From: a virus
Length of the DNA: 29,980 nt
Virus record (IMG/VR): IMGVR_UViG_3300021964_000334
Location: 1-29,980 of that record
Direction: 5' to 3' (one strand)
The translations under genes and the position numbers were made by a program. The notes below the pieces were generated by a model. That model searched no databases and was not told the origin of the DNA. It was given only the letters and a program-made list of their open reading frames with translations. Below are positions 4,880 to 28,132 of this stretch, piece after piece (position 1 is the first letter of the stretch; every line of letters starts with the position of its first letter).

Positions 4880-5117
4880 CACCACCTTTTATTTTGACTA
4901 CAACGGCACGGCTGTTTCTTGGAATTACAAGGGCGACTACACGGACAACACCAGCCCAATCTATAAGGCGTACAACCACAAGACATATAAACCACGCCTA
5001 AACGATCTTGTAATCCTAGAAACGCACGGCCACGATAAACGCACGCTTAAACAGGCACTGTTAGAAAGCATCAACGCAATACCGCTTGATAAACCAAAAA
5101 CAATATGGGGGAGATAA
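4872..5117 (+). CDS. Hypothetical early protein, 81 aa
   Basis: The start at 4872 follows GAGGTGG and overlaps the previous stop by eight bases; an in-frame ATG at 4857 is a weaker option. The 81 residues are aromatic-rich at the N-terminus (FYFDYNGTAVSWNYKGDY), suggesting a small beta sheet, followed by a short helix. No family is recognised. The DNA includes two GCACG cores (5024-5028 and 5041-5045). A TAATG junction leads into the next gene. Confidence 0.6.
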   Translation: MINTTFYFDYNGTAVSWNYKGDYTDNTSPIYKAYNHKTYKPRLNDLVILETHGHDKRTLKQALLESINAIPLDKPKTIWGR

Positions 5118-5263
5118 TGCAAAAATACTTATTACATATAGAGCCAATAGAAATTACCGAAGAAGAATACAAAGATATTAAAAAAATTGGTTTTGAAGAT
5201 TGGATTTTTGAACAAGCGGAATTGCAAAACATTGAACAAAACCGCATAGAAAAAATAAAGTAA
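5117..5263 (+). CDS. Small acidic early protein, 48 aa
   Basis: It begins in a TAATG junction with GGGGGAGATA as ribosome site. The 48 residues (MQKYLLHIEPIEITEEEYKD at the start) are acidic and probably a helical hairpin. I recognise no domain. Confidence 0.6.
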   Translation: MQKYLLHIEPIEITEEEYKDIKKIGFEDWIFEQAELQNIEQNRIEKIK

Positions 5264-5268
5264 AAAAA

Positions 5269-5466
5269 ATGAGAAATATTATTTGGGAAAGTGTCGCTAA
5301 ACGCGAAAATGGAAATCCTATAATTGTTATCCAACAATTAAAAAACGGATATGCAATTAAAGAATGCAACCTTAAAGGTGAATACAAAACCTGGAGAACT
5401 TACGCGGAACTATGGGACGCTGAAAATCACGCGATCACCCGCACGCTCGGACACACGCATGATTGA
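5269..5466 (+). CDS. Hypothetical early protein, 65 aa
   Basis: This 65-residue protein starts five bases after the previous stop. The spacer is only A residues, so translation probably depends on coupling. A beta-rich core (GNPIIVIQQLKNGYAIKEC) is followed by a helix (TYAELWDAENHAIT) and a His-rich tail. It resembles small sheet-plus-helix phage proteins in general, but I know no specific family. It overlaps the next start by eight bases. Confidence 0.55.
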   Translation: MRNIIWESVAKRENGNPIIVIQQLKNGYAIKECNLKGEYKTWRTYAELWDAENHAITRTLGHTHD

Positions 5467-5551
5467 ATTTCTCATACGCACGACCGCATTTATAATTCTT
5501 TTTACCTTTATTTATATTATCGCCTGGATTTTTATAGATAAGTTAAAATAA
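5459..5551 (+). CDS. Single-pass membrane micro-protein, 30 aa
   Basis: The last gene of the early block encodes 30 residues that are almost entirely one hydrophobic helix (TAFIILFTFIYIIAWIFI, about residues 9-26), with Arg before it and Lys after it. A one-helix inner-membrane peptide encoded early could affect membrane potential or superinfection, but the role is unknown. The start lies within the previous gene (eight-base overlap) and has only a weak ribosome site. A longer 66-residue reading from 5351 would be antisense-like shadow and is not favoured. Confidence 0.5.
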   Translation: MIEFLIRTTAFIILFTFIYIIAWIFIDKLK

Positions 5552-5597
5552 CTCTTTACGCACGGGAACGGGTAATTGTATATATTTATCTCCCCCC

Positions 5598-6038
5598 TTA
5601 CGAACGCTCGTTCTCGTGCATCTGCTTAATCATCACTACACCCAAACCCACTAACAGAATATGCTTACGCACGCCCGCTTTCGCTTTCCGCACGAGCGTC
5701 CGTTCGTTCTCTAACGCTATCCACAAGATATTCTTATCCACAAGCTCACTCACGCACGCACCTACTGTATTCCTACTGAGGCCTATCATCTTCGCGTAGT
5801 ACGCATAGGCATCATGACTGCTCATAGTTTCTGCTCTGTAGCGTTCGCATATTGCCCAGAGTGTTAGCTTGCTTCCAGGCGAGAGCGTACGATCGCCTGC
5901 GTGCGTGCGAAACCACTTCCACACACATACTCGCATCTTGCTGAAGTTTCTATACTTTGCAACTACGCTCGCACGAACGCACCCACTTTTGCTTTCGTTC
6001 TCAGGTATTGCATCTTCTATCCACCAGAACTTATCCAT
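5598..6038 (-). CDS. Winged-helix DNA-binding protein, candidate initiator
   Basis: This 146-residue basic protein contains a winged-helix/HTH_36-like domain (about residues 55-110; LTLWAICERYRAE, then YAKMIGLSRNTVGACVSELV and a wing-like KNILWIALENERTL). Such domains occur in phage and plasmid replication initiators and in repressors. The gene is the last of the minus-strand replication module. Directly upstream lie a hairpin and three 22-bp iteron-like repeats, and inside it are two DnaA-box-like sites. That context favours a replication initiator, but an autoregulating repressor is equally compatible. The start at 6038 has a G-rich tract about 9 bases before it; M35 is a fallback start. 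The DNA is unusually rich in CGCACG/CGTGCG. Confidence 0.6.
   Translation of the reverse strand: MDKFWWIEDAIPENESKSGCVRASVVAKYRNFSKMRVCVWKWFRTHAGDRTLSPGSKLTLWAICERYRAETMSSHDAYAYYAKMIGLSRNTVGACVSELVDKNILWIALENERTLVRKAKAGVRKHILLVGLGVVMIKQMHENERS
5717..5742 (+). other. Two DnaA-box-like sites
   Basis: TTATCCACA at 5734-5742 matches the bacterial DnaA box exactly, and CTATCCACA at 5717-5725 differs by one base. They lie 17 bp apart in the same orientation. Both are within the winged-helix gene, so they also encode protein, which lowers confidence. Proximity to the iteron-like array is what makes them notable. Confidence 0.4.
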
Positions 6039-6055
6039 TTACTTTAACCCCCATA

Positions 6056-6086
6056 AGAGAGATTGCCGTGCCAACGGCAATTCTCT
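6056..6086. promoter_or_regulatory. Strong hairpin upstream of winged-helix gene
   Basis: ATTGCCGT (6062-6069) pairs with ACGGCAAT (6074-6081) around a four-base loop. The stem extends by five more pairs (AGAGA with TCTCT) past one bulged G. No T tract follows on either strand, so it is not a typical intrinsic terminator. It sits 18 bp before the start of the minus-strand gene and could be an operator or an mRNA leader structure. Confidence 0.55.
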
Positions 6087-6107
6087 ATATGTTATGTTAT
6101 GGATATA

Positions 6108-6173
6108 TGCAAAGTATCTTTGCATTAATCGCCAAGTATCTTTGCATCTATTGCAAAGTATCTTTGCATTAAA
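6108..6173. repeat. Three 22-bp iteron-like tandem repeats
   Basis: TGCAAAGTATCTTTGCA occurs at 6108-6124 and 6152-6168, with a variant CGCCAAGTATCTTTGCA at 6130-6146. The three copies are exactly 22 bp apart and form a 66-bp direct tandem. Each unit is also a palindrome (TGCAAAG, TAT, CTTTGCA). A further 10-bp half-site (ATACTTTGCA, 5952-5961) lies within the adjacent gene. Spacing of two helical turns next to a DNA-binding protein gene is typical of replication iterons or a multi-operator. The flanking DNA at 6086-6108 is AT-rich. Confidence 0.75.
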
Positions 6174-7369: not shown

Positions 7370-9208
7370 TTAAAATTCCCAATTAATGCCTTTCTTTTCG
7401 TACACCTCTAAGACGGCATTTCTTCTTATCAGTGTCATAGGGTTAGTATCAACCTCTGATGAATTAGCTTTTACCACTCCAGCAGTCACTACCCTTGTTC
7501 TTTCGTACTCCAGGCCTTCTTCTGCACAGATGTTTTTAACCTGTTGTTCTTCGCATAAACCAATGGTAAGGCACAACCTGTGTCCGTCTATCAATGAGCT
7601 ACTTCCACGAACGCTGGCTCTAAGGGACATTTGATCCTCTTGTACTGCCAATGCGCTTTTGGCCATATGATGCAAAGAAAGTACGGACGCTTCAAACTTT
7701 GATGCGATACCAGCACAGAACTGACAATACAACTGAGCAGCTTCTTGGCTCGTTGTGATAGGTGCAGCTACAAAACTTTGAATAGGATCAATAATTACCA
7801 AAGAAACATCATTAAAACTGGATAATTCTTCTACCAATTCATCTGCTTCTGGTGTAAGGGCTAGACCATTTTTATCATCTTTTAATAACATTAATGGTTT
7901 TTCTGTATCTGGAACTGTATAGACATAAGTGTCATACTCGGTGTCATACCTTTTATTTTCTGGATCTAAGGCCTTTAATCTTCTAAAGACTTCGTTGCTA
8001 TCGTCCTCTGCCGCCAACACCAGAACATTGCCTGGTTTCTTTATTGGTTTACCTAGCCAAGTACCACGCCCAGAACTCACCTTTAACGCAAGATCTAACG
8101 CTAACATTGATTTACCTACGCCACCTATTGATGCAAGTATGCCTGGTTTAGATGTTTCTAATAATCCTTCAACTAACCAAGATCTTGGCGGGGGATCGCC
8201 AACCATTCTCTTTATAGAGAATTGTCGTATGCCAAGACCTTGATTATTTATTTCTAATCTGACTGCATCTAAACCATTAGAAATGGCTAGATCATTGTAA
8301 TCACCAACGACTGAGGGTAAACGGATAAGACATTTATAATTTTGTGATGCGATTTCTTCTGCTTTCTTCTTACCTAGACCGCTTTCATCATTATCAAACG
8401 CAAGAATTAACCTTGCATCTGTTTTATCTCTGATGTTTTTAACGGCATCTTTACCAAAGTTAGCTGAAAATACGCACGCCACAGGTAAATTGGTTGCTTG
8501 ATAGATACTAGCACCTGTAGCCATACCCTCTGTAATGACAATGGTATCCAACTTATCCAGACTGCGGTAATCCGCCCCGATTAAAAAAATGTTTCCTTTG
8601 ACTTCGCCAGAAGAAACAAACCTTTTTTGCCCGTCAGCCTGGATATATTGGAGTGAGCGTATTTTACCAGATAGGTTATATATAGGGATAACTAAGGCGT
8701 TATTGTGCGTCCTTAGATTAAAACTTTTGATCTGTTTATTCTTGAGATAATCGTGGTGTATCGCTTCTGGATACGACTGAAACCTTTTTTGACAATCCTC
8801 TGCAACTTCTTCATATCTTTCTTTCTTTTGTTTCTCTGCTTCTTCTTTCGCTTTTGCTAACGCTTCTTGTAGCTTTTGTCGTTCTCCATGATCGAGTGTA
8901 GATATCTCCACAGATGACCATTTGTATTCCGCCCCCGTTCTCCAGTTTCCGTAAGTTGCGTATAAGTAATCATTAAAAGTATTAATAACATACCAACCTG
9001 ATTTCTCATTTCCTTTATCTGGCCTAATTCCTTGTGTTGCTGTGACGGGTACTCGGACGAGTTCCCCGCTAGTATTTAAAAAAGAAACATTTAAACCTAT
9101 GGATTGCATTTCTGCAATAAGGTCAGACTCATTTCCTTTATTTTTTTTGTATAAAAATGATGGATCAACAACCAATCCATCTTTACCGCTATATTTCGTT
9201 AGATCCAT
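7370..9208 (-). CDS. Primase-helicase: TOPRIM plus RepA-like ATPase
   Basis: This 612-residue protein combines two replication activities. An N-terminal region with a coiled coil (about 107-140) precedes a TOPRIM fold typical of DnaG-like primases: ITEGMATG (E227), FDNDESG (D272, D274) and GDYND (D303, D306). The C-terminal half is a RecA-fold AAA_25/RepA-type helicase: Walker A SIGGVGKSML (360-369, K366), Walker B LVIIDP (D474) and LHHMAKS (about 512-518). No N-terminal zinc ribbon is visible, so template recognition may differ from classical primases. It would unwind the fork and prime lagging-strand synthesis. It overlaps the upstream zinc-finger gene by 20 bases. Confidence 0.88.
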   Translation of the reverse strand: MDLTKYSGKDGLVVDPSFLYKKNKGNESDLIAEMQSIGLNVSFLNTSGELVRVPVTATQGIRPDKGNEKSGWYVINTFNDYLYATYGNWRTGAEYKWSSVEISTLDHGERQKLQEALAKAKEEAEKQKKERYEEVAEDCQKRFQSYPEAIHHDYLKNKQIKSFNLRTHNNALVIPIYNLSGKIRSLQYIQADGQKRFVSSGEVKGNIFLIGADYRSLDKLDTIVITEGMATGASIYQATNLPVACVFSANFGKDAVKNIRDKTDARLILAFDNDESGLGKKKAEEIASQNYKCLIRLPSVVGDYNDLAISNGLDAVRLEINNQGLGIRQFSIKRMVGDPPPRSWLVEGLLETSKPGILASIGGVGKSMLALDLALKVSSGRGTWLGKPIKKPGNVLVLAAEDDSNEVFRRLKALDPENKRYDTEYDTYVYTVPDTEKPLMLLKDDKNGLALTPEADELVEELSSFNDVSLVIIDPIQSFVAAPITTSQEAAQLYCQFCAGIASKFEASVLSLHHMAKSALAVQEDQMSLRASVRGSSSLIDGHRLCLTIGLCEEQQVKNICAEEGLEYERTRVVTAGVVKANSSEVDTNPMTLIRRNAVLEVYEKKGINWEF

Positions 9209-9596
9209 CTACCCCGTTCCTTGCCTGTTCGATTGCGTAATCAAGATATCCACGCACGAGCGAAGTAAACAATGCTCTCCTATGCTCTGCTTGCCATTCA
9301 TGCAACGCTTTCTTCATAGTTTCGCCTTCACTCTCTTTACTCAAGCTAATATATTTTTCCTTCGCACGAGCGATCGCATGTTCCAATCCTTTTTCACTTA
9401 TTTGTGCCATTTGCTCGAGCGTCTTTCCTTCCTTTAATTTTTCCTGGCACGCACGACTGCACGCACCAAACCACTTTTCATCACGATAGAACAATAGACC
9501 GCCAACGGGTTTACAACAGATACCACATAATGACGGCCTATCATTCCGTAAAGCATTAAAATGGTATTTCTTCGTCTGCCTCTGGGGAAACACCAT
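9189..9596 (-). CDS. Zinc-finger protein, probably DNA module accessory
   Basis: The product has a cysteine cluster LCGICCKPVGG followed by GACSRACQ, consistent with one zinc-binding module. A long charged helical region follows. The start is placed at 9596 (MVFPQRQTKK), overlapping the 3' end of the SSB-like gene by 41 bases; a longer start at 9689 would lie deep inside that gene. The ribosome site is weak (AGAAGAAGC). The coding DNA contains two exact CGCACGAGCG decamers read in different frames and a dense GCACGCACG tract. Its role is unknown; position between SSB-like and primase genes suggests DNA metabolism. Confidence 0.6.
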   Translation of the reverse strand: MVFPQRQTKKYHFNALRNDRPSLCGICCKPVGGLLFYRDEKWFGACSRACQEKLKEGKTLEQMAQISEKGLEHAIARAKEKYISLSKESEGETMKKALHEWQAEHRRALFTSLVRGYLDYAIEQARNGVDGSNEI

Positions 9597-10005
9597 TATC
9601 TTTTGCTTCTTCTTTTTTGACGGGGGCAGACTTAGCTTTCTGCCAACCTTTGCCCTTGCCGTCATCAATGACGAGATAGCCTTTCTCATCTTTTACCAGA
9701 TTTGCACGCACGGACGAACCAACCAACTCGCTTGTGTCCTTGATCTTATCGAAGCCCATAGCTTTTCCAAGATTGGCAAGCGATTGTAAACCAATGCTTA
9801 CGGCTGCTTCGCTCGTATCATGCTCTACTGTAAAAGTGTGATAGACCAGACAAGGCTGTTCAACGCACTTAAATTGCACTTTCAATGCAACCCAGCCGTT
9901 TCTGCCTTGTATTTCTTCGTCTGAAACATATTCCAATGTATATGTTCCAGGCTCTAGGTGTGATCCTAGATCGCCACTTTCAAAATCATATTTACTTAGA
10001 TCCAT
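9556..10005 (-). CDS. DUF669 single-strand DNA-binding-like protein
   Basis: The 149-residue protein fits the phage DUF669 family: an N-terminal beta-rich domain (GTYTLEYVSDEEIQGRNGW) and the typical GLQSLANLGKAMGFDKIKD segment. The C-terminus is disordered and ends in EADEEIPF, the acidic tip used by bacterial SSB to recruit partners. DUF669 proteins commonly occupy the SSB slot beside Sak4-like recombinases, as here. It probably coats single-stranded phage DNA during replication and recombination. The start has AGGAGAGAAAA upstream. Confidence 0.8.
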   Translation of the reverse strand: MDLSKYDFESGDLGSHLEPGTYTLEYVSDEEIQGRNGWVALKVQFKCVEQPCLVYHTFTVEHDTSEAAVSIGLQSLANLGKAMGFDKIKDTSELVGSSVRANLVKDEKGYLVIDDGKGKGWQKAKSAPVKKEEAKDNGVSPEADEEIPF

Positions 10006-10952: not shown

Positions 10953-11221
10953 TGCACCACCTCAACTTTATCTTCGCCACCTTCAACAGCATCTTTTAAT
11001 AGATTGCTATAGTGTTGTGATAACAGTTCTAGTTTCTCGACTTCAAAGTTAAGATTACCAATTTGGTTTAAGGCATCTCTCCTTTGGTTATTTAAAAGAA
11101 CAACTTTGTTATATAAAAGTTTGTTCTCATCATTAAGATCATCAACCTTATACTCTTTGCCATCTTCCTCAAAGGTAAAGGTCAATTCTTCTTTTACTTC
11201 TTTAGATTTGTCTTTAGACAT
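10949..11221 (-). CDS. Coiled-coil protein, 90 aa
   Basis: The start at 11221 follows CGGAGAGAAAA; a longer reading from 11326 would lie within the nuclease gene and lacks a ribosome site. The protein has a charged N-terminus, a short beta hairpin (TFTFEEDGKEYKVDDL) and a long heptad-patterned helix (about residues 30-80). This N-terminal hairpin plus coiled-coil layout is seen in phage accessory proteins of unknown function. The last codons overlap the Sak4-like start. Confidence 0.65.
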   Translation of the reverse strand: MSKDKSKEVKEELTFTFEEDGKEYKVDDLNDENKLLYNKVVLLNNQRRDALNQIGNLNFEVEKLELLSQHYSNLLKDAVEGGEDKVEVVQ

Positions 11222-11957
11222 TTTTCTCTCCGTTTCTAAGTTTATAAGTTTCGCAGACGCTGCGTCCATTGCAGAATCTACAGTGATCCCCAAACACATG
11301 TTCTGGGTTTTCTTCCATACAAGCATCTGCTCGTGGTTTCAGAAAATCGTACGCCCAATCAACCAAGTATTCGGCTGATGTGTGCCAAGTCTTTATGGCT
11401 CTTTCTCTTTTAACGCCTCTCGGCTGGACGATTGTTAGTTCCATTTCGGTATCTGCATTACCATATCTAGTCAATGCACCTAATGCATAAATCATTAACT
11501 GTTTATTGTTTTCAGGGCTGACTTGCCATTTACCAGACTTTAAATCTATAACTGCAATCTTATCTTTGGCCAGTATTATTGCGTCTGCTGTACCCCAGCA
11601 ACTTTGTGTGATCTCTGGTATCTCTACTTTTTCTTCTATCAATAGTCTGCCGTTTAATTCTTTTGTTCTTTCTTCTACATACTCTGTATAGATCCTGGCA
11701 CAATCAATCATGTCTTGATCTATTTCTATCTCAAAGTTTTCTATTGCTTCTGTTTTACCTAGCCAATAATCTTCTAAAGATATATCACCATCTAACATAT
11801 CTTTCATTAATATCTCTGACATCTGGTGAATCAATGTACCTGTAGCTGCTGGAACACTTGCAGTAAATGGTACTTTTGCTGCTTCGCTAGGCATAGCTGG
11901 GCAGATCGTCCATTTGTCCGCAGATGATGGTGATAATAAAGCGTGTTTACTTGGCAT
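11214..11957 (-). CDS. DUF2800 / Cas4-like PD-(D/E)XK nuclease
   Basis: The 247-residue product begins with the DUF2800 signature SKHALLSPSSADKWTICP. It has a PD-(D/E)XK core: H44, D125 (WGTADAIIL), D138-x-K140 (IDLKSGKW) and Q153. Four late cysteines (C213, C226, C229, C235) resemble the Fe-S cluster of Cas4/AddB-type nucleases. In phages these enzymes are thought to process DNA ends for Sak4/Redbeta-type annealing, which fits the neighbours. The start at 11957 is chosen because the signature follows directly; it overlaps the HTH gene by 11 bases. Confidence 0.8.
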   Translation of the reverse strand: MPSKHALLSPSSADKWTICPAMPSEAAKVPFTASVPAATGTLIHQMSEILMKDMLDGDISLEDYWLGKTEAIENFEIEIDQDMIDCARIYTEYVEERTKELNGRLLIEEKVEIPEITQSCWGTADAIILAKDKIAVIDLKSGKWQVSPENNKQLMIYALGALTRYGNADTEMELTIVQPRGVKRERAIKTWHTSAEYLVDWAYDFLKPRADACMEENPEHVFGDHCRFCNGRSVCETYKLRNGEKNV

Positions 11958-12162
11958 CTTTGGAAATATAACGAGCTTGTTCCCAAGCAATTACATCATT
12001 GATATCAAAGTATATCTTTCCTGTAATTTTCCAATGCGGTGGTGCATCACCCCTTGATCTTCTATTGTCTATAGTCTTTTTACTTACACCCCATCTTTTA
12101 GCTAGAGTTTCAGTGTCAATAGTGTTATTTATATCAAAGGTTTTATTATTGTTTATTTCCAT
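11947..12162 (-). CDS. Small HTH protein, excisionase/MerR-like
   Basis: This 71-residue protein heads the replication operon. It contains an HTH_17-like domain (LAKRWGVSKKTIDNRRSRGD, then APPHWKITGKIYFDINDVIA), the DNA-binding fold of excisionases and small phage regulators. No integrase is seen in the window, so regulation of the divergent genes is more likely than excision. The start at 12162 follows GGGAAC; an in-frame ATG at 12204 is less supported. A 21-bp palindromic element just upstream is a possible operator. Confidence 0.7.
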   Translation of the reverse strand: MEINNNKTFDINNTIDTETLAKRWGVSKKTIDNRRSRGDAPPHWKITGKIYFDINDVIAWEQARYISKDAK

Positions 12163-12249
12163 AAAAGTTCCCAATTTTTCCAAGATATGCTTATAATAAA
12201 CCATATTTGCTAATTTTGGTAAGATTATTTAAAAAAAAGGGAGTTTTTA
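12163..12249. promoter_or_regulatory. Divergent control region with 21-bp dyad
   Basis: This region separates the minus-strand replication operon from the plus-strand DUF3310 pair. ACCATATTTGCTAATTTTGGT at 12200-12220 is an imperfect palindrome. On the minus strand TTACCA followed 18 bp later by TATTAT is a possible promoter. AAAGGGAG before 12250 is the plus-strand ribosome site. The HTH protein encoded next door is the obvious candidate regulator. Confidence 0.4.
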
Positions 12250-26939: not shown

Positions 26940-28132
26940 TAACTAAAAAATCCTAATGGTTTAGGTAGGTTTGGAATTTTTGATGTTGGTACGCTTTCTA
27001 ATGCAGCTAGTCTTGCCTCTATATCAGAAAGACTTACCTGTGGAATACCAGCGATTGCTCTGTTTATGTCCTGTTGAGTTACGAATCGTGATACATCAGG
27101 CATTTGCACTTGAGGTAATGATCCTAGAATATCTGATCTTAGACCGCCAATATCTTCTTGTGTTACAAATCGTGATGTATCTGGCATCCTTACTTGCGGT
27201 AAAGATCCAAGTATATCTGATCTTAAACCAGTAATATCCTGTTCAGTTAAAAATTTAGATGTATCTATTTTAGGAATGTTTAAAGGTATATCTTTTAACA
27301 AAGATGGTAATTCCTCTCTGCCAACAAATTGAGAAACATCTACTTGTGGTGCTTGCGGTAAACCAGCAAGAATGTTTGGTAATTCTTCTCTACCAATAAA
27401 CTTTGAGGTATCTATTTGTGGAATGTCAAATTCTGGGATAGATGGAACAAAAGATGGTAATTCTTCTCTAGTTACAAATTTAGAAACATCTATTTCAGGT
27501 ATGCTTAATGATTCTCTTAAGCTCTTAGTTACATCTTTTGGTATTTCTATTTTAGAAAAATCTATATTAGAAAAATCAAATTGTGGTATTTGTCCAAAGA
27601 AATTTGGTAAAACATCTGGAAAAAACTTTTGCGCTGATGGAATAAATCTTTCAGGCATTGGTGTTCCAGTTGGCGCGTAAGGCATCATTGGCTCGCTTGG
27701 TTGAGCTACCTGTCCTGTTGTAGCAGGTGGTGTAGGAAATACTGGTGCTACATCTCTTGGTAAATTAACAACATTAAGATCAGCTTGTGTATAACCGCCA
27801 GGTTGCTCTGGTGAAAAACTCATGCCAGGTGCAACAACATCTTCAAATGGCATACCGCCCGCAATCGTGCGTGCGTAGTTAAAACCAGATGTATAAGTAG
27901 GATCAGATGCTGGTATTACATAGCTTCCGTATGCGTATGGATCTGCTTGCTCTTCCGTTGTTCTATTTTGCAAAAGACCTAAAATATTTGGAGATATGGC
28001 TTGGTTATTTCTAAAAAACATTGGCGGAATATTTCCATCTTGGACATAATTTGAAATTTTTTCTAAAACTCTTTCATCTATTTCACCATCTCTCATGTAT
28101 GGATTTTGTCTTAGTATGTTTTGTTCTGCCAT
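26939..28132 (-). CDS. Proline-rich protein with six 24-28 aa repeats
   Basis: This 397-residue protein has a disordered, Pro/Gly-rich first half and then six related units (residues about 211-370, bases 27023-27502). Each unit contains I-P-x-(I/V/F)-D-x-S-(K/R)-F-(V/I/L)-(T/G)-x-(E/Q)-(E/D)-(L/I). The units start at 218, 244, 268, 293, 321 and 349. The last two full units share a nine-residue block (LRSDILGSLP). No enzyme motif is visible. It lies between the lysis genes and the scaffold. A virion or assembly protein is the best guess; the family is unknown to me. Confidence 0.6.
   Translation of the reverse strand: MAEQNILRQNPYMRDGEIDERVLEKISNYVQDGNIPPMFFRNNQAISPNILGLLQNRTTEEQADPYAYGSYVIPASDPTYTSGFNYARTIAGGMPFEDVVAPGMSFSPEQPGGYTQADLNVVNLPRDVAPVFPTPPATTGQVAQPSEPMMPYAPTGTPMPERFIPSAQKFFPDVLPNFFGQIPQFDFSNIDFSKIEIPKDVTKSLRESLSIPEIDVSKFVTREELPSFVPSIPEFDIPQIDTSKFIGREELPNILAGLPQAPQVDVSQFVGREELPSLLKDIPLNIPKIDTSKFLTEQDITGLRSDILGSLPQVRMPDTSRFVTQEDIGGLRSDILGSLPQVQMPDVSRFVTQQDINRAIAGIPQVSLSDIEARLAALESVPTSKIPNLPKPLGFFS

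Follow-up and report, generated by a model that had tools for sequence, protein, structure and literature searches.

The oriV of IncQ plasmids carries three or more iterons with a 22-bp period, 20 bp of which are conserved (PMC4948828). RepC binds these repeats, the duplex opens, RepA unwinds it and a primase recognises small hairpins (PMC6925257, PMC8965321, PMC4948828, PMC7557826), one such site, ssiA, consisting of a 6-nt single-stranded 5′ tail and a hairpin at nucleotides 7–27 (PMC4434180). In the lambda origin there are several iterons, all of them imperfect inverted repeats (PMC7466680); theta-type iteron plasmids combine iterons and an unwinding element with a winged-helix Rep protein (PMC4980987); and the lactococcal replisome organisers, ORF13 of TP901-1 and Rep2009 of Tuc2009, bind a direct-repeat region that serves as the origin (PMC8965321). 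Here we describe a viral locus whose anatomy is closest to the IncQ oriV and the lambda origin, and which comparative sequence analysis suggests, with a probability of about 0.72, to be a phage origin of replication of iteron type; if origin activity is confirmed, the element would be a new variant of iteron origin.

A repeat array in the leader of a winged-helix gene

The window analysed is the whole of IMG/VR virus record IMGVR_UViG_3300021964_000334, positions 1–29,980. Three repeats in it, at 6108–6128, 6130–6150 and 6152–6172, follow one another in steps of exactly 22 and 22 bp, forming an array (6108–6172, no strand assigned) with the core TGCAAAGTATCTTTGCA. Both outer copies contain the 7-3-7 palindrome TGCAAAG-TAT-CTTTGCA, from which the middle copy, CGCCAAG-TAT-CTTTGCA, departs by two mismatches, bearing out the original prediction of three palindromic direct repeats spaced 22 bp apart. 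Self-similarity of the array at lag 22 reaches z=7.7, against a maximum of 4.6 among 1043 control windows drawn from the same and related contigs. A scan for the repeat motif at up to three mismatches gave five strand-wise matches, all within the array (0.22 expected; 0 of 100 shuffles reached five), and no copy outside it across the 29,980 bases.

Because the adjoining gene (5598–6038) lies on the minus strand, the array is upstream of it, in its leader. The gene had been proposed to code for a winged-helix protein, and structure prediction bears this out with confidence: the AlphaFold2 model of the 146-aa product is a single winged-helix domain (pLDDT 90), accompanied by a sub-threshold match to HTH_36. 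Profile matches across 21 family members, weak throughout, are consistent with a candidate iteron-binding initiator, with HTH_36 found in 16 (best 1.7e-6), the 'replication initiation protein' profile phrog_270 in 14, phage_O_Nterm (TIGR01610) in 4 (best 0.0076) and, in a comparison with the lambda O N terminus, phrog_678 in 5 (best 1.6e-4). Pfam and NCBIfam scans of the same 21 members returned no RepC-type family, and the family profile matched none of the sequences of solved structures.

Foldseek and other structure searches with the 146-aa protein recovered generic winged helices, the MarR types starting at E 2e-3, with many ties among Z scores that reach 7.1; among viral structure models, it matched phage helix-turn-helix and lambda-O-like proteins. 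A plasmid initiator (4pql, 4pt7) was considered as a specific fold relative and set aside, its Z of about 6 being tied with those of CRP, Fur and others. As modelled, the fold is no closer to initiators than to repressors such as the MarR types. This resemblance, and the placement of array and hairpins (below) after the upstream genes and ahead of the protein's start codon, would suit purely transcriptional autoregulation, by which a winged-helix repressor (or late switch) would act on three operators before its own gene and the hairpins would be 5′-leader RNA structures. The searches also returned TubR, a binder of centromere iterons (E about 0.015–0.03), which would fit a partition or centromere-like complex with a winged helix of TubR or ParR type on the iteron array; yet many unrelated winged helices score as well as TubR, the replication-region genes examined include none recognisable as a partition NTPase, and most contigs carry no integrase, so that a segregation system would be of little evident use. 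We consider partition very improbable.

Period and sequence of the repeats among relatives

The first homologue search yielded four loci: two near relatives, 98 and 92% identical in protein, which carry the same array, and a further two, 48% identical, in which different repeats occupy the same place. A wider search, by alignment of the winged-helix protein and the neighbouring primase-helicase, extended this to about 100 loci, and 77 IMG/VR entries, a figure that includes the window and some duplicates, proved to hold the winged-helix gene; many loci are near-duplicates, and subgroup counts are taken from non-redundant sets. The family is large and made up mostly of marine phages, with two loci from metagenome-assembled genomes, one labelled Pelagibacter.

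Nearly all homologous loci have 3–5 repeats of 21–22-bp period upstream of the gene. Among 20 representative subgroups, the best self-similarity lag is 22 in 15, including the window, 21 in 3, and 43, equivalent to two alternating units of 21–22, in the remaining 2. At lag 21–22 these subgroups score z=4.4–9.0; the controls have their 99th percentile at 3.9 and peak at 4.6, so that two of the 20 scores sit at the upper end of what the controls reach. Individual chains comprise mostly 3–5 units in steps of 22, sometimes 21, and in subgroup L096 the unit adjoining the conserved ATATCC hexamer described below is too diverged to chain. The repeat sequences themselves are unrelated between about a dozen subgroups: TGCAAAGTATCTTTGCA in the window stands beside TGCGACAAAAGTGGTACCT (L005), GGCACTAGTAGTACC (L040), TACCGTAGATGTCC (L078), GATGCATAACGCAACATC (L060) and TTGTAGCAAAGCGCTACAA (L073). 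The 22-bp spacing, whose loss in relatives had been put forward as a check on the original prediction, is thus kept, as a period of 21–22 across the 20 subgroups, while the sequence diverges.

The recognition-helix region of the protein varies between subgroups as the repeats do, which is what would be expected if the protein reads the repeats. Operators and repressors of phages also diverge together, in immunity groups, and to that extent the pattern counts for autoregulation. Further strong copies that might act as additional operators did not emerge from position-weight-matrix scans, which outside the arrays gave only borderline scores, in subgroups with weak matrices, a result that speaks against the autoregulatory reading.

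At the edge of the family, the most distant homologue (L023, 551–1037; 31% identity) has no ATATCC and no 22-bp array in the upstream DNA available, and its winged-helix gene comes after a different, 128-aa gene. Searches by tblastn found no match to the protein family in 50,697 phage records, nor to one family member in 72,556 plasmid records, and the origin type therefore appears to be unrecognised in phage and plasmid records. Three cultured phages were examined as possible relatives and rejected: pelagiphage HTVC106P shares the capsid protein, but its annotation names no primase-helicase, and in Alteromonas phage PB15 and Idiomarinaceae phage 1N2-2 the DNA that follows a shared but distant primase-helicase gene holds no 22-bp array. 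In 1N2-2 that DNA (L113, 7860–8070) instead carries inverted GGTACA...TGTACC repeats at irregular spacing, possibly another origin type.

The conserved leader block

Directly after the last iteron lies the hexamer ATATCC (6101–6106, minus strand), kept in all family members but the distant L023. It begins an AT-rich block, ATATCCATAACATAACATAT (6087–6106, minus strand), which is a candidate unwinding element: the 20 bp counted from ATATCC onward average 0.76 A+T, compared with about 0.6 around them, and a 6–9-bp AT-rich palindrome follows the hexamer in 23 of 29 distinct segments. This palindrome is perfect in most relatives and degenerate in the window's own clade, where the strand is A/C rich; its arms covary, with 17 distinct stems and a complementarity of 1.0 within stems against 0.49 across them. 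The AT-rich DNA predicted beside the array is accordingly present, as the short block at 6087–6106 and not as a long tract.

Between this block and the gene is a GC-rich hairpin, AGAGAATTGCCGT-TGGC-ACGGCAATCTCTCT (6056–6086, minus strand; 13 bp), a candidate primase site or regulatory hairpin. A hairpin of this kind occurs in 29 of 29 distinct segments, averaging 11 bp against 4 in shuffles, and here too the arms covary; covariation was counted stem by stem, the MAFFT leader alignment being out of register in hairpin 1. An Rfam search gave no match at gathering thresholds. Were the hairpins RNA structures of an autoregulated leader, wobble pairs might favour the mRNA-sense strand, but they are not enriched there (39/1067, against 66/1125 on the other strand); the hairpins are therefore not clearly sense-RNA elements, and we discarded a sense-strand RNA leader as their sole reason. 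A second, opposite-strand hexamer-hairpin was not found consistently. On the far side of the gene, long GC-rich stems (for example GGGCGCG...CGCGCCC) surround a purine-rich, AGGAG-type stretch directly after the winged-helix stop codon in several relatives, among them L076, L063, L089, L101 and L096; fold z-scores for this 3′ structure are mostly non-significant, standing out only in L076 and L063.

Promoters bear on autoregulation in both directions. In four relatives, a weak pair of promoter-like elements overlaps both the last repeat and the AT block, as an operator arrangement would have it, whereas sigma70-like promoters number 0 in the window region (2.4 expected) and 4 over 24 loci (8.8 expected), counts that speak against it with the reservation that promoters of marine hosts may not follow the consensus.

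DnaA-box-like sites inside the gene, and help from DnaA at the origin, had also been part of the prediction. A perfect box, TTATCCACA, does exist at 5734–5742 on the plus strand. With up to one mismatch allowed, however, the window holds 14 boxes, near the 9.3 expected by chance, and of 23 related loci L004, a close relative, is the only one to retain TTATCCACA; two others have single scattered variants and the other 20 have none. Given this lack of conservation, we judge the match coincidental, DnaA involvement is unsupported, and DnaA boxes were dropped as part of the origin. A switch in GC skew near 5 kb was likewise dropped as origin evidence: it falls where the coding strand changes and, being confounded with gene direction, says nothing about replication.

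A primase-helicase neighbour and the likeness to known origins

The candidate partner of the winged-helix protein is a 612-aa TOPRIM primase fused to a RepA-type, RecA-fold helicase (7370–9208, minus strand; Pfam AAA_25 at 4.9e-35 and Toprim_3 at 8.1e-8), the helicase domain having RSF1010 RepA (1g8y, E=2.4e-13) as its only confident solved relative. In every locus whose sequence reaches far enough, which leaves out L014 and L023, it is encoded on the strand of the winged-helix gene and lies at most 2.6 kb upstream of it. Other products of the replication region include a Sak4-like annealing protein and a PD-(D/E)XK-superfamily exonuclease. A search for PolA-family polymerases found none in 17 contigs, so a host polymerase is likely to be used. 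Integrase genes occur in only 4 of 20 contigs; the module is thus not tied to lysogeny.

These observations bear on two rivals. Direct-repeat arrays also mark some pac sites, which would favour reading the array as a packaging or late-transcription activation site, but a separate helix-turn-helix candidate for the small terminase lies at 1597–2112 and the array travels with the primase-helicase, leaving this reading little credence. The repressor with three operators, which the original prediction had named as the main alternative, keeps that place in weakened form, with no recognisable promoter, no second operator and a module kept with or without an integrase; it also leaves the constant primase-helicase neighbour and the conserved ATATCC/AT block unexplained, and we think it unlikely.

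Of the readings considered, the comparative evidence most favours a plasmid-like iteron origin whose winged-helix initiator is encoded by the phage itself. That part of the prediction holds up through the maintained period, the RepA-type primase-helicase nearby and the conserved AT-rich and hairpin block, and has lost its DnaA component. For an origin we count the fixed period with diverging repeats, the conserved ATATCC, AT palindrome and hairpin, the constant primase-helicase neighbour and its kinship with RSF1010 RepA, the weak replication-initiator profile matches, the lack of strong iteron copies elsewhere, the absence of a PolA-family polymerase from the 17 contigs, which fits use of a host enzyme, and the independence from lysogeny (integrase in 4 of 20 contigs). 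Against it we count the small protein with one winged helix and a predicted fold that is at least as repressor-like as initiator-like, the location of the repeats in the gene's own leader, where the operator of an autorepressor would lie, and L023, whose available stretch lacks both ATATCC and array.

Following the precedent of the IncQ oriV (PMC4948828, PMC7557826, PMC6925257), we propose that the 146-aa protein would bind the three repeats (3–5 in relatives), about two helical turns apart, and that binding would open the ATATCC/AT-rich block beside them. Once open, this block would be where the phage's TOPRIM/RepA-type primase-helicase is loaded and primes, perhaps at the hairpin or hairpins, with elongation by a host DNA polymerase. 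The protein probably also represses its own synthesis, since the repeats sit in the leader of its gene.

Compared with the RSF1010-type oriV, by published descriptions rather than RSF1010 sequence records, the phage locus likewise has at least three iterons of 20–22-bp unit and 22-bp period, an AT-rich region, hairpins, a candidate iteron-binding initiator and a RepA-type helicase encoded nearby (1g8y match above), and ATATCC followed by the AT palindrome resembles the layout of ssiA, a 6-nt tail and a hairpin. In contrast, its primase is of TOPRIM type and fused to the helicase where IncQ RepB′ is AEP-type, and its initiator, a single winged helix of 146 aa, has no detected sequence match to RepC; on these two grounds the origin should not be filed as IncQ. 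Where IncQ has one hairpin per strand, the phage has two hairpins, one with the conserved 5′ ATATCC, and no consistent counterpart on the opposite strand. With the lambda origin it shares palindromic iterons beside an AT-rich tract and an initiator of winged-helix type, with weak matches to the O N terminus. Lambda's iterons, however, lie inside gene O at uneven steps of 20, 24 and 23, whereas the phage array is upstream of its gene and regular at 22 bp, and O acts together with the P loader and host DnaB while this phage encodes its own helicase; because the array is outside the gene, the origin is not to be filed as lambda-type. Theta iteron plasmids such as RK2, F and P1, with Rep proteins of RepE/TrfA type, also pair iterons and an unwinding element with a winged-helix protein, but those proteins (RepE, for example) have two winged helices and the phage protein one, and their origins usually include DnaA boxes, which are not conserved at the phage loci, so the DnaA-assisted theta type does not apply either. 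The lactococcal replisome organisers resemble the phage system in pairing a phage protein with a direct-repeat region as origin, and differ in that their repeats lie inside the gene.

Taken as a whole, the comparison could mean that a large marine phage lineage has an IncQ-like origin with a new, minimal family of single-winged-helix initiators, fast-diversifying iterons locked to a 22-bp period, and a TOPRIM-RepA primase-helicase directed by a structural primase site (ATATCC and a covarying hairpin), a composite picture that we offer tentatively and rate at somewhat below even odds. If it is true, the diversified iterons would sort co-infecting phages into replication incompatibility groups. 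Fixed spacing with freely changing repeats makes the family a clean natural experiment on initiator–DNA co-evolution, one that bears equally on whether co-infecting phages form plasmid-like incompatibility groups, and the element is a small, portable candidate replicon for marine bacteria.

Two further features of the window may be recorded. A small HTH_17/excisionase-like gene (11947–12204), a possible transcription regulator, overlaps the start of the DUF2800 exonuclease gene (11214–11990) in the leftward replication-gene cluster. The most over-represented 7-mer of the window, ACGCACG (21 copies, with 0.6–0.7 expected), clusters at 1517–1751, 5022–5906, 8472–9712 and 27866–27876, and is also frequent near the winged-helix gene in relatives L013, L040, L045, L078 and L085.
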